A stretch of DNA of 64,000 nucleotides. Source: a virus. A program made the translations under genes and the position numbers. Of this stretch, positions 43,145 through 64,000 are shown piece by piece; position 1 is the first letter of the stretch; every line of letters begins with the position of its first letter. The notes beneath the pieces are model-generated. The model had not been told where the DNA came from. It was given only the letters and a program-made list of their open reading frames with translations, and did not search any database. Location: positions 1 to 64,000 of IMG/VR virus record IMGVR_UViG_3300043434_000295; one strand, given 5' to 3'.

Positions 43145-43152
43145 TATAAATA
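43145..43152 (+). promoter_or_regulatory. Late promoter TATAAATA before regA
   Basis: An exact octamer in the 60-bp gap after gene 62, expected start near 43158, giving a leader of about 44 nt. A late promoter here would keep RegA, the gene at 43636 and Hsp20 expressed late. Confidence 0.65.
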
Positions 43153-43635: not shown

Positions 43636-43848
43636 ATGCTAAAATTTGAATTGACTCTTGACGAAGCTAACCTTATTCTTGCTGCATTGAGCAAGGCACC
43701 TTTTGAACAGGTTGCGGGTTTGATCGGCAAACTTCGTGAACAAGCTCAACCTCAGCTTCCAGCTCTTGAAGCAGCACAACGTGCTGCTCAGGAAGCAGCA
43801 CAAAAGACTATGGAAGAAACTCCAGTCGAACGCAAGCTTCCTAACTAA
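43636..43848 (+). CDS. Small helical protein, unknown
   Basis: A 70-residue protein with an N-terminal L-T-L-D-E-A-N-L-I-L-A-A-L-S-K-A-P-F-E-Q-V helix-turn-helix-like pair. An Ala/Gln/Glu-rich helix follows, likely a coiled coil. The motif E-A-N-x-I-L-x-A-L near the start is common in small proteins of marine T4-like phages. The ribosome site is GGAG. It lies just before a 200-bp non-coding segment. Function is unknown. Confidence 0.6.
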   Translation: MLKFELTLDEANLILAALSKAPFEQVAGLIGKLREQAQPQLPALEAAQRAAQEAAQKTMEETPVERKLPN

Positions 43849-44051
43849 TTCCCCTTCGGGATGGGAATGGCAGGGGATGCGACCTACGCCATAAGTTAAA
43901 ACGCATACTAATTCATCCCACTACCTTGGGAACCGTTTGACGTTCACGGTATAAGGCGTCAACCAGCTGCCTTGGCACTGGCTAAACAAACCAAGGATAA
44001 CGCTACGCCAAATGGGTAGCACTTTTAATACTCGCTTAATAGGAGAAAACT
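43849..44051 (+). ncRNA. Candidate structured RNA leader upstream of hsp20
   Basis: This is the longest gene-free stretch in the window (203 bp) and visibly richer in G+C than the flanks. Complementary pairs suggest an organised fold. CCTTGG (43924-43929) pairs with CCAAGG (43991-43996), enclosing TTGACG (43937-43942) with CGTCAA (43957-43962) and the hairpin CCAG-TGCC/GGCA-CTGG (43963-43981). Other pairs are CTACC (43921-43925) with GGTAG (44015-44019), and ATGCG with CGCAT (43877-43906). A 6-mer, TACGCC, occurs twice and can pair with GGCGT at 43955, so alternative folds exist. A 12-codon frame starts at 43861. Possible roles are a leader or thermosensor for Hsp20, or a separate RNA. No known class was recognised. 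Confidence 0.45.
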
Positions 44052-44558
44052 ATGAACGCAAAATTCATCCCAGCCGTCTGGCAAGAACAATTCAAAGACT
44101 TCGATAAATTCTTCGTCGGATTTGATGATCAGTTCACCCGTCTTCAGAAGATTCATGATGACATCACGAAGAACATTCCCAACTATCCTCCATACAACAT
44201 TCGCAAAACTGGTGATAATACTTACACCATTGAAATGGCTGTTGCTGGTTTTGGTCAAAGCGAAATTGACATTGAAATCGATGGTGGTAAATTAATAGTT
44301 CGTGGTAATGTTTCTGCTGATAATGAAGCTAATGATTACCTGTTCAAAGGAATTGCTTCACGTGCTTTCACCAGAGCTTTTGCTATCGATGATCAAATCG
44401 AAGTTAAAGACGCTGAACTTTTTAACGGTATGCTTCGTATTGCGCTAGAACGACTAGTGCCTGAAGAAAAGAAGCCAAAGAAAGTTGCAGTAAAGACTAA
44501 AGACCAAAAACAGATGTTGACCGAGGAAGAAAAAGATGAAATTGCTTCAAAGTTTTAA
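44052..44558 (+). CDS. hsp20: Small heat-shock protein Hsp20
   Basis: A 168-residue alpha-crystallin-type chaperone. The core domain spans residues about 40-145 with N-I-R-K-T-G-D-N-T-Y-T-I-E-M-A-V-A-G-F, I-D-I-E-I-D-G-G-K-L-I-V-R-G-N and F-K-G-I-A-S-R-A-F-T-R-A-F, then G-M-L-R-I-A-L-E-R. The last motif replaces the usual G-V-L-T-I. Hsp20 genes are a common trait of marine T4-like phages and may protect capsid or replication proteins. It follows the structured leader, with AGGAGA as ribosome site. Confidence 0.93.
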   Translation: MNAKFIPAVWQEQFKDFDKFFVGFDDQFTRLQKIHDDITKNIPNYPPYNIRKTGDNTYTIEMAVAGFGQSEIDIEIDGGKLIVRGNVSADNEANDYLFKGIASRAFTRAFAIDDQIEVKDAELFNGMLRIALERLVPEEKKPKKVAVKTKDQKQMLTEEEKDEIASKF

Positions 44559-44758: not shown

Positions 44759-45070
44759 ATGGGTGTAAAAGTATGCAAATTGAGTAGCGGTGAGGATATC
44801 ATCGCAGACGTTGAAGTAGATCAACATGGTTATTTGTTTTCAAATCCAGCTCAAATCGTAGTTCAACAATCACAAGATGGTAGAGTTGGTGCAGCTTTTG
44901 CTCCATTTGCTCCATACGCAAAGGATGGAAAAGTTCGTATCTTCAAGGAATTCGTTGCTGGAGAAATGGACATTGACATCAAATTGATTAATGAATATAA
45001 TCGTATTTTTGGATCAGGAATTATGATTGCTGCGGCAAATGATATTCCACCTTCTCCAATTATTACATAA
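44759..45070 (+). CDS. Conserved Sm-like-fold candidate protein
   Basis: A 103-residue protein starting G-V-K-V-C-K-L-S-S-G-E-D-I-I-A-D-V-E, which reads like an Sm/SH3-type barrel opening (strand, G-x-x-I, strand). The middle has S-N-P-A-Q-I-V-V-Q-Q and P-F-A-P-Y-A, and the C-terminus I-N-E-Y-N-R-I-F-G-S-G-I is helical. Related small proteins occur near gene 43 in T4-like marine phages. An RNA-binding role would fit the fold but is not shown. GGAG precedes the ATG and a terminator follows. Confidence 0.5.
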   Translation: MGVKVCKLSSGEDIIADVEVDQHGYLFSNPAQIVVQQSQDGRVGAAFAPFAPYAKDGKVRIFKEFVAGEMDIDIKLINEYNRIFGSGIMIAAANDIPPSPIIT

Positions 45071-45072
45071 GA

Positions 45073-45101
45073 TTGTACTTTTAATCACCAACGGGATATA
45101 A
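45073..45101 (+). promoter_or_regulatory. Sigma70-type promoter for gene 43, -10 inside a terminator stem
   Basis: TGTACT (45073-45078), 17 bp, TATAAT (45096-45101). The -10 is part of the 5' arm of the terminator at 45091-45117, the same arrangement as at 39926-39970. Confidence 0.78.
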
Positions 45102-45117
45102 TTATTATATCCCGTTT
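45091..45117 (+). terminator. Terminator overlapping the gene 43 promoter
   Basis: CGGGATATAAT (45091-45101) is the exact reverse complement of ATTATATCCCG (45103-45113), followed by TTTT. Confidence 0.8.
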
Positions 45118-49314: not shown

Positions 49315-49633
49315 AGTTTTAGGTAGATCTACTCCAGAGGGCGAACTTCATGCCCTCTGTTTTACTACTGGACCATTTGCAGAAATTGTATTTTCTTATA
49401 ATACAGTTGACTTCGTAGAAAATGATTCACAAGATCATTTGACTATTAAATTTGATTATGATGTGCACTATGTACCAGAAGATAAATTAGGATTTGACAC
49501 AAAGTCTTTTGAAAACGAATTAGGAGACTTTGTTGTACAAATGCTAATGTATGGTGTAGAAAAAGAAAACCTAGGATTTATTAATGACAATGAAATTGGA
49601 AAAGACAATACTATCGAATCTGATTCACAATGA
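49289..49633 (+). CDS. Hypothetical protein between uvsX and gene 41
   Basis: A 114-residue acidic protein starting within uvsX and ending within gene 41, both in other frames. The N-terminus is basic (K-T-K-L-R-P-H-K-V-L-G-R-S), the rest beta-rich then helical (F-E-N-E-L-G-D-F-V-V-Q-M-L-M-Y-G-V). The double overlap resembles translational coupling in this operon. No family is recognised. T4 has gene 40 in this interval, but no similarity is visible. Confidence 0.5.
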   Translation: MKTKLRPHKVLGRSTPEGELHALCFTTGPFAEIVFSYNTVDFVENDSQDHLTIKFDYDVHYVPEDKLGFDTKSFENELGDFVVQMLMYGVEKENLGFINDNEIGKDNTIESDSQ

Positions 49634-53809: not shown

Positions 53810-54267
53810 AAGTTTTAAAAGAAGCAATGGATTTGCAGAATCGAAAGTCACAAGATTATCAGAATCCTTTGAGCCGTGTACGCCAAGCCGATCACTATCC
53901 GCGTGGCGTTTATACTATCCTTGACACCATTAATGGCAAGATGCTTCGCATGTATTCTGTATTAGAAACTATGGAACAAGGTGGCAAAGTCAATTTTGAA
54001 TCTATTGAAGATTCTGCAATTGATATGATTAACTACGCGTCATTTCTTGTTGCATATATGCGTGGTGATATCGATGGTCAAGAAACGGGCAAGGATATCT
54101 TCAATCGTCGTGTAAGCAAAGCAACACATCCTACTACAGATTTGTATCCTGCAAAGTTCCGTGCAATCACCAAAGAACAAACAACTCTTGATGCACGCAA
54201 TTTTACAAATATTGTACCACAGGATGAAGTTGGAAAGTACGTACCTACTGGAAGATTTGAAGAATGA
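53770..54267 (+). CDS. Nucleotide-modification-associated protein (DUF1599-like)
   Basis: A 165-residue protein with K-S-Q-D-Y-Q-N-P-L-S-R near residue 25 and a long helical core ending E-D-S-A-I-D-M-I-N-Y-A-S-F-L-V-A-Y, the layout of DUF1599. This family is thought to be linked to modified nucleotides and is distantly MazG-like. ATG 53770 with GGAG 6 bp upstream is preferred over 53752, which lacks a ribosome site. It overlaps the endonuclease gene by 40 bp and gene 42 by 4 bp. The neighbours make a role in the modified-base pathway plausible. Confidence 0.65.
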   Translation: MEQNGNQSERASVKVLKEAMDLQNRKSQDYQNPLSRVRQADHYPRGVYTILDTINGKMLRMYSVLETMEQGGKVNFESIEDSAIDMINYASFLVAYMRGDIDGQETGKDIFNRRVSKATHPTTDLYPAKFRAITKEQTTLDARNFTNIVPQDEVGKYVPTGRFEE

Positions 54268-62831: not shown

Positions 62832-64000
62832 ATGAAACAATTTAAACAGCTCATTAAAGAGCTACCCTCTAAAAAAGTAGTGTTTGCTTTCGGTCGTTTT
62901 CAACCGCCAACGACCGGACACGAGTTATTGGTAAACGCTGTCAAAAAGATCGCTTCTGCACAGAAAGCCGATCACGTCATATTTGCTTCCCGCACACAAG
63001 ATAAGAAAAGCAATCCACTTCCAGTGGATCGTAAGGTGTACTACCTTAAAAGAATGTTTCCAAATACTAACTTCATTGCTGCTAATGAAGAGATTAGAAC
63101 ATTCATGGAAGCAGCAAAGGCTTTATCTAAAAAGTATAAAAATCTAGTAATGATTGCTGGATCTGATAGAGTTCCAGAATATAAGAAACTATTAGATCGT
63201 TATAACGGCGATGTATTCCACTTTGATACTGTTGAAGTAGTATCTGCGGGTGAACGTGATCCAGATGCCGATACTGCGTCGGGTATGTCTGGTACGAAGA
63301 TGAGAGAAGCTGCAAAGAAGAACGACTTTGCATTATTCAAAAAAGGATTACCGCATACTCTAACTGAACTTGATGGCAAACGCCTGATGAATGAAATTCG
63401 TCAAGGCATGGGTATGGATATTGTTAAAGAACAAGTAAAGTTTGAAACAGATGATATTCGTGAAAAGTATTTCTCAGGTGATATCTTTCACGTTGGCGAT
63501 ATTGTCGAATCAAATGGTGTAGTTTATCAAATCGTTAAGCGTGGTTCTAATCATCTATTAGTAGAAGACGAACAGGGTAATAAGATTAGTAAATGGCCAC
63601 AAGATTTACAGGAATCTACGAAAGAATTTAAAGGTCTAAACGAAATGTTAATCAAGTCAGCTGATAAGTTAAAAGTTGCACGTATCATTGCATCTTCTCT
63701 AGGTATGGAAGATGTTGATGAAAAGACTGGTGCAGAACAAATGGTTAATGTTTCTCTTCGTAAAATTAAGAGCAAGAATTTAACACCCGAAGCATGGAAG
63801 ATTCTTGGCAATATGCTTAAACTTGCGACAGATGCAGGTATTAAATATGATTCATCTATCATTCCAGAAACTAAATTCAAAGTAATGGGTTTAGAGGAAG
63901 AAAAAGAATCAGAAGAATATGTCGAAATGGAAGACAATGATATCGATGATATGATCAATGGACTTACAGATGACGATTATCTGGAAGCATATGATGATGA
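62832..64000 (+). CDS. NMN-adenylyltransferase/cytidylyltransferase-like protein, candidate packaged (3' end outside window)
   Basis: The frame is open to the window edge, 389 codons so far. The N-terminus MKQFKQLIKE matches the capsid-targeting pattern with I-K-E as cut site; removal would leave L-P-S-K-K ahead of the domain. The nucleotidyltransferase core starts F-A-F-G-R-F-Q-P-P-T-T-G-H (the T-T-G-H form of H-x-G-H, as in NMN adenylyltransferases) and has the second signature S-G-T-K-M-R-E-A. After residue about 200 it has a separate domain with S-G-D-I-F-H-V-G-D-I-V and a long acidic tail. A role in NAD or another nucleotide cofactor is inferred. Confidence 0.78.
   Translation, partial: MKQFKQLIKELPSKKVVFAFGRFQPPTTGHELLVNAVKKIASAQKADHVIFASRTQDKKSNPLPVDRKVYYLKRMFPNTNFIAANEEIRTFMEAAKALSKKYKNLVMIAGSDRVPEYKKLLDRYNGDVFHFDTVEVVSAGERDPDADTASGMSGTKMREAAKKNDFALFKKGLPHTLTELDGKRLMNEIRQGMGMDIVKEQVKFETDDIREKYFSGDIFHVGDIVESNGVVYQIVKRGSNHLLVEDEQGNKISKWPQDLQESTKEFKGLNEMLIKSADKLKVARIIASSLGMEDVDEKTGAEQMVNVSLRKIKSKNLTPEAWKILGNMLKLATDAGIKYDSSIIPETKFKVMGLEEEKESEEYVEMEDNDIDDMINGLTDDDYLEAYDD

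Follow-up and report, generated by a model that had tools for sequence, protein, structure and literature searches.

The window, by which we mean the whole 64,000-nucleotide stretch of DNA analysed, comes from a virus genome of 166,832 nt that carries its replication genes in T4-type order. Within this array a gap of 203 nt (43849-44051) is bounded exactly by the stop codon of a small open reading frame (ORF) and by the start codon of hsp20 at 44052. The hsp20 product matches the Pfam HSP20 family (7.6e-16), while Pfam and PHROG searches with the 70-aa product of the small ORF gave no match. The features of the locus, with the basis for each, are as follows.

40702: sliding clamp, gene-order neighbour
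41501 and 42761: clamp loader, gene-order neighbours
43202: regA, gene-order neighbour
43636-43848: small 70-aa ORF, 5' of the leader
43849..44051, plus strand: entire structured leader, from the 70-aa ORF to hsp20 (position conserved in ~80 IMG/VR loci)
43850..43866, plus strand: 5' hairpin of module M1, UCCC(CUUCGGGAU)GGGA, with core GGGAUGGGA (linkage to the thermometer)
43867..43906, plus strand: H-type pseudoknot of M1 (loop-tail complementarity)
43916..43931, plus strand: hairpin P2 of module M2, UCCC(ACUACCUU)GGGA (comparison of relatives)
43932..43962, plus strand: hairpin P3 of M2, ACCGU/ACGGU, plus pseudoknot (mostly conserved, some compensating variants)
43963..43996, plus strand: class IV hairpin of M2, CCAG(C)UGC-CUUG-GCA-CUGG (one pair exchange; CCUUGG/CCAAGG invariant)
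44002..44020, plus strand: putative thermometer hairpin I, GCUAC(G)CC-AAAU-GGGUAGC, with bulged G44007 (covariation, ROSE_3 alignment)
44031..44045, plus strand: ROSE-type hairpin II of the putative thermometer, CUC(G)CU-UAAU-AGGAG (predicted to pair with the Shine-Dalgarno sequence)
44041..44045, plus strand: hsp20 Shine-Dalgarno sequence AGGAG, within hairpin II
44052..44558, plus strand: hsp20, the gene that would be under control (PF00011 HSP20, phrog_432)
45129: DNA polymerase, gene-order neighbour

The preliminary description of this DNA had drawn attention to an uncoding, G+C-richer gap, and this proved accurate: G+C-content is 47.8% in the gap and 37.3% in the window, just 1.2% of 203-nt windows are equally G+C-rich, and no other long gap in the window reaches the same value. 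The gap is apparently non-coding, as it holds no long ORF of its own; a listed 52-aa ORF extends in as far as 43894. On a rough gene call the intergenic gaps in the window have a median length of 16 nt and just five measure at least 200 nt, so the gap before hsp20 is long, but not unique (the others are 53810-54263, 488-917, 49315-49583 and 63334-63550).

The complementary segments that had been pointed out (UCCC/GGGA, CCUUGG/CCAAGG, GGCGU and two copies of TACGCC) are all present. As proof of structure, single-sequence folding of either strand was nonetheless weak and uninformative: the fold of the gap has a z-score of -1.16 and 29 of 200 shuffled sequences folded as well. With so small a margin over shuffled sequences, the case for structure comes from comparison of relatives, in which an element at the same place carries compensatory changes. 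An Rfam scan at gathering scores found nothing in the gap, a tRNA/tmRNA search of the gap found none, and phage records contained no blastn match to the region.

Relatives were gathered by an Hsp20 protein search of IMG/VR, which yielded 80 loci. A small ORF of the same type (~55-70 aa) sits 5' of the leader in most of them, and most loci holding the region have a non-coding stretch of ~140-230 nt after this post-regA ORF, with additional sequence between ORF and element in some. The gene 3' of the non-coding stretch is hsp20 or, in many relatives, a short ORF followed by hsp20; in L044, L022, L070 and others the ORF between thermometer and hsp20 is ~72-76 aa long. One representative of these ~75-aa ORFs had no Pfam or PHROG match, and a phasin-like identity was dropped on that account. 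The leaders are modular, with the two hairpins of the thermometer preceded by M1 and M2, both of which are optional: many phages are without both and retain the thermometer. In the minimal form, found in many phages, TATAAATA as late promoter is followed by the two thermometer hairpins and then by hsp20.

Both thermometer hairpins (44002-44045) carry a bulged G, and in the predicted fold hairpin II occludes the Shine-Dalgarno sequence of hsp20. UCGCU at 44032-44036 faces AGGAG at 44041-44045, an instance of the U(U/C)GCU motif in the 3'-proximal hairpin; the motif occurs in just one of the 83 ORF upstream regions of the window. Using cmscan, the ROSE_3 model (RF02523) aligned to 43999-44057 over all 69 model positions with 24.6 bits. 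The same model aligned at the equivalent place in four further loci (L109, L042, L125 and L039; 33.2 to 24 bits) and in the phages Melnitz-3, DSL-LC03 and C48C1 (34.1 to 26.8 bits). Since 24.6 bits for the window and 34.1 bits for the best phage fall short of the gathering threshold of 43 bits, we do not claim membership of ROSE_3. The comparison nevertheless supports the view that 44002-44045 would work like a short ROSE element. The suggestion of a thermosensor made in the preliminary description is supported for the 3' quarter of the gap, by anatomy (ROSE motif, bulged-G hairpin, sub-threshold ROSE_3 alignment) and by conservation before hsp20 in very distant phages.

Hairpin I provides the covariation. 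All seven pairs are always paired in 51 distinct sequences, and four of them vary on both sides; this paired percentage is biased upward because four of 55 sequences unpaired in the chosen register were excluded and the best-paired register was taken if several fitted. Double-changed cells numbered 93 compared to 21.5 in shuffles, and the covariation score was 0.758 compared to 0.195. Hairpin II, by contrast, is near-invariant in the close set and shows little covariation, an invariance that arises by construction because the loci were partly selected by hairpin-II sequence. Searching IMG/VR for hairpin II as an exact string together with a start codon retrieved at least 120 stretches, and nearly all matches listed precede hsp20 or a ~75-aa ORF. 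Simple pattern classing of the matches listed placed 74 before hsp20, 39 in a second class and few elsewhere, the second class being the ~75-aa short ORF apart from at least one misassigned locus (L101).

Twelve named phages, chosen by protein similarity or synteny and, unlike the other loci, without selection by RNA or hairpin-II sequence, are free of this circularity. U(U/C)GCU...GGAG lies 19-26 nt upstream of the hsp20 start in all twelve, if in S-CAM7 the distance is counted from an ATG 5' of the annotated start. A covariance model, R1, was built from 21 metagenomic leaders (its E-values are rough) and used to search the named phages, which had been held out. It found 11 of the 12 (among them phages of Pelagibacter, Methylophilales, Synechococcus and Prochlorococcus), each exactly at hsp20; Atu_ph07 was missed despite carrying the motif. 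In 58 kb searched, R1 gave no matches beyond the hsp20 sites of the searched loci, and in the complete phage genome of 166,832 nt it found one site. Conservation and covariation in relatives, the check that the preliminary description had proposed, were therefore both found. In S-CAM7 (L206, KU686213; ~1414-1504) the thermometer precedes this ATG, and the start annotated for hsp20, ~80 nt further on, is probably placed too far downstream.

The 5' 150 nt of the leader are a different matter. The preliminary description had raised a new regulatory RNA, and for this part the idea of a new structured RNA is supported: the M1/M2 region (43850-43996) matches no Rfam family and holds both covariation and pseudoknots. 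The 166,832-nt genome contains a single copy of the M1 core GGGATGGGA. Among fetched loci this core lies 5' of the thermometer in 84 of 88 occurrences, and two of the other four are also inside such a leader. The pseudoknot of M1 has a stem formed by AUGGC (43867-43871) and GCCAU (43888-43892), with the loop AUGCG (43877-43881) complementary to the tail CGCAU (43902-43906). In 23 of 26 distinct types the complementarity score between a type's own loop and tail is at least four, compared to a mean of 9.8 types after tails were swapped between types, and the observed mean was reached by none of 2,000 shuffles.

M2 comprises four classes, of which the window belongs to class IV. The P3 loop UUGACG (43937-43942) is complementary to CGUCAA (43957-43962), and compensating variants exist, such as GCGUUAA opposite UUGACGC in L357. 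In alignments of classes I to III, helices P4 and P5 repeatedly vary on both sides. Class IV is nearly invariant; its one clear change affects a pair of the 43963-43981 hairpin, from U-A to A-U. The loop CCUUGG of the class IV hairpin is complementary to CCAAGG at 43991-43996, and there are two CCUUGG copies, either able to pair with this single CCAAGG; the candidate long-range pairing of the first copy, in the P2 loop, is consistent but invariant, and absent from classes I-III. As to linkage, the class III string has a thermometer plus hsp20 or short ORF downstream in 119 of 129 occurrences. The remaining ten comprise four cut by a contig end, three without the motif in unrelated sequence, one too short and two classed as 'other', both of which are hsp20-like by listed start. 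The class IV string occurs 29 times 5' of a thermometer and ten times without one, in unrelated sequence. A search of the genome collection with the exact class I string gave no occurrence and so no bacterial source; one string is a weak test.

In many relatives the modules begin where a late transcript is predicted to start. Of 134 leaders with M1 and M2, 96 carry TAAATA no more than 26 nt 5' of their first element, compared to four of 207 background windows; the corresponding figures are 38 of 61 for minimal, four of six for M1-only and nine of 50 for M2-only leaders. The gap from TAAATA to the first element is nearly always 4-8 nt, and 5-8 nt in nearly all such leaders with both M1 and M2. 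The late promoters reported are NATAAATA for S-PM2 and TATAAATA for T4 (PMC2984593). In the window and its closest relatives, which form a subgroup, a T4-type late promoter is absent at the expected place. TATAAATA is present at 43145-43152, just upstream of regA, and marks a possible late start from which transcription could continue across the 70-aa ORF and on into the leader of hsp20. Elsewhere in the neighbourhood, a perfect sigma-70 consensus (TTGACA-17-TATAAT) at 44973-45001 and, further on at 45090-45116, a hairpin of 12 pairs both lie upstream of the DNA polymerase gene.

Taken as computed (location, conservation, covariation, motif identity and, in relatives, late-promoter spacing), these data make it probable that the gap is the leader of an hsp20 mRNA with a short ROSE-like thermometer at its 3' end and the optional modules M1 and M2 upstream. 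At low temperature U(U/C)GCU would pair with the Shine-Dalgarno sequence AGGAG and hide the ribosome site. On warming, the weak, bulged hairpin II would melt and ribosomes would start on hsp20, whereas the stable hairpin I should remain folded. Counting against such a response, an energy model of the two-hairpin leader has the accessibility of the Shine-Dalgarno sequence increase only from 0.06 (5 C) to 0.40 (37 C), which is not extreme compared to other genes of the window. M1 and M2, placed at the predicted transcript 5' end in relatives, may form a compact fold that stabilises or insulates a late transcript. We favor this role over those of a sensor or an independent RNA, while holding it tentatively, at somewhat less than even chances.

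The principal competitor is that M1 and M2 form a riboswitch-like domain that senses a ligand or protein in tandem with the thermometer. Conserved loops between covarying helices and pseudoknots usually point to a tertiary fold, and the modules have exactly these, M2 being moreover linked almost exclusively to the hsp20 leader. Yet the modules are optional, many phages having lost them and kept the thermometer, their sequences are freely exchanged, and conserved alternative pairings with the Shine-Dalgarno sequence or with hairpin I were not found, TACGCC/GGCGT being the one candidate searched systematically. We regard a sensing domain as possible though on the unlikely side. Slightly less likely still is its fullest form, in which M1 and M2 would constitute a new, module-exchangeable class of multi-pseudoknot regulatory RNA, sensing a second signal, be it a metabolite, a protein or the state of infection, beside a ROSE-like thermometer on a late phage hsp20 mRNA. 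The candidate switch of the preliminary description, two TACGCC copies competing for GGCGT, fares far worse: the window does show the complementarity, but only one of 186 distinct M2 leaders, the window itself, has two TACGCC copies and GGCGT, and in relatives the conserved GGCGUC is able to pair with the P3 loop instead. It is refuted as a conserved mechanism, and we give it next to no credence.

Two further explanations concern the hairpins themselves, and both seem improbable to about the same degree. The 5' 170 nt might be an independent small RNA with hairpin 44002-44020 as its intrinsic terminator. At least four consecutive T lie within 9 nt 3' of hairpin I in 113 of 161 M2 leaders, so that hairpin I could also act as a (weak) terminator, and in many relatives the 5' element begins at the predicted late start site. 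Against this, a terminator scan of the window does not list the hairpin, the T run is absent in several leaders, M2 is nearly always linked to the hsp20 leader, and the Rfam consensus has the same bulged-G hairpin ahead of the ROSE_3 hairpin. Alternatively, and by analogy, hairpin II might serve mainly as a docking site for Hsp20 in autorepression, temperature being sensed via titration by clients. The phage element does stand 5' of an Hsp20 gene, and E. coli IbpA is reported to repress its own translation via its 5' UTR (PMC10474464); in many relatives, however, another short ORF lies directly 3' of the hairpin. Such autorepression and the thermometer are compatible.

The thermometer reading gains from comparison with known systems. 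Short two-hairpin ROSE thermometers precede Pseudomonas ibpA, where melting of hairpin II has been measured (PMC3669281). The present element shares with these and with ROSE_3 the two hairpins, U(U/C)GCU opposite the Shine-Dalgarno sequence in the second, a start codon 3' of the hairpin and a small heat-shock gene downstream; with the ROSE_3 consensus it also shares the bulged G in the first hairpin. ROSE-like elements have two to four hairpins, the short form two, as here (44002-44020 and 44031-44045). The present element differs in being phage-borne, in its sub-gathering Rfam scores and in the extra 5' modules M1 and M2, and in many relatives a T4-type late promoter takes the place of the heat-shock sigma promoter of the ibpA ROSE element. 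The leader of phage lambda cIII is likewise a phage mRNA leader with temperature-dependent access to the ribosome site; unlike that two-fold switch, which closes when hot (PMC4166951), the present ROSE-type zipper should open when hot.

If the thermometer reading is correct, T4-like phages of dominant aquatic bacteria (hosts include Pelagibacter, Prochlorococcus, Synechococcus, Methylophilales and uncultured hosts) bear bacterial-type RNA thermometers on a small heat-shock gene, and the virus itself would sense temperature, timing a chaperone late in infection. In the open-access literature searched, we found no prior report of phage hsp20 RNA thermometers. The separate pseudoknotted modules covary strongly and make up a new, well-defined RNA motif. 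They invite comparison with manA RNA (RF01745), another structured cis RNA, found in T4-like cyanophages, that may contain a pseudoknot; it has been reported upstream of genes including ibpA chaperone genes (PMC2864571). Homology of M1/M2 to manA was rejected: the RF01745 model matches neither the window nor the relatives, and the manA sequence of P-SSM2 differs. In P-SSM2 (L208), manA RNA lies at 538-735 (181.6 bits), between regA and hsp20, so that related phages carry two unrelated structured RNAs in the regA-hsp20 neighbourhood.
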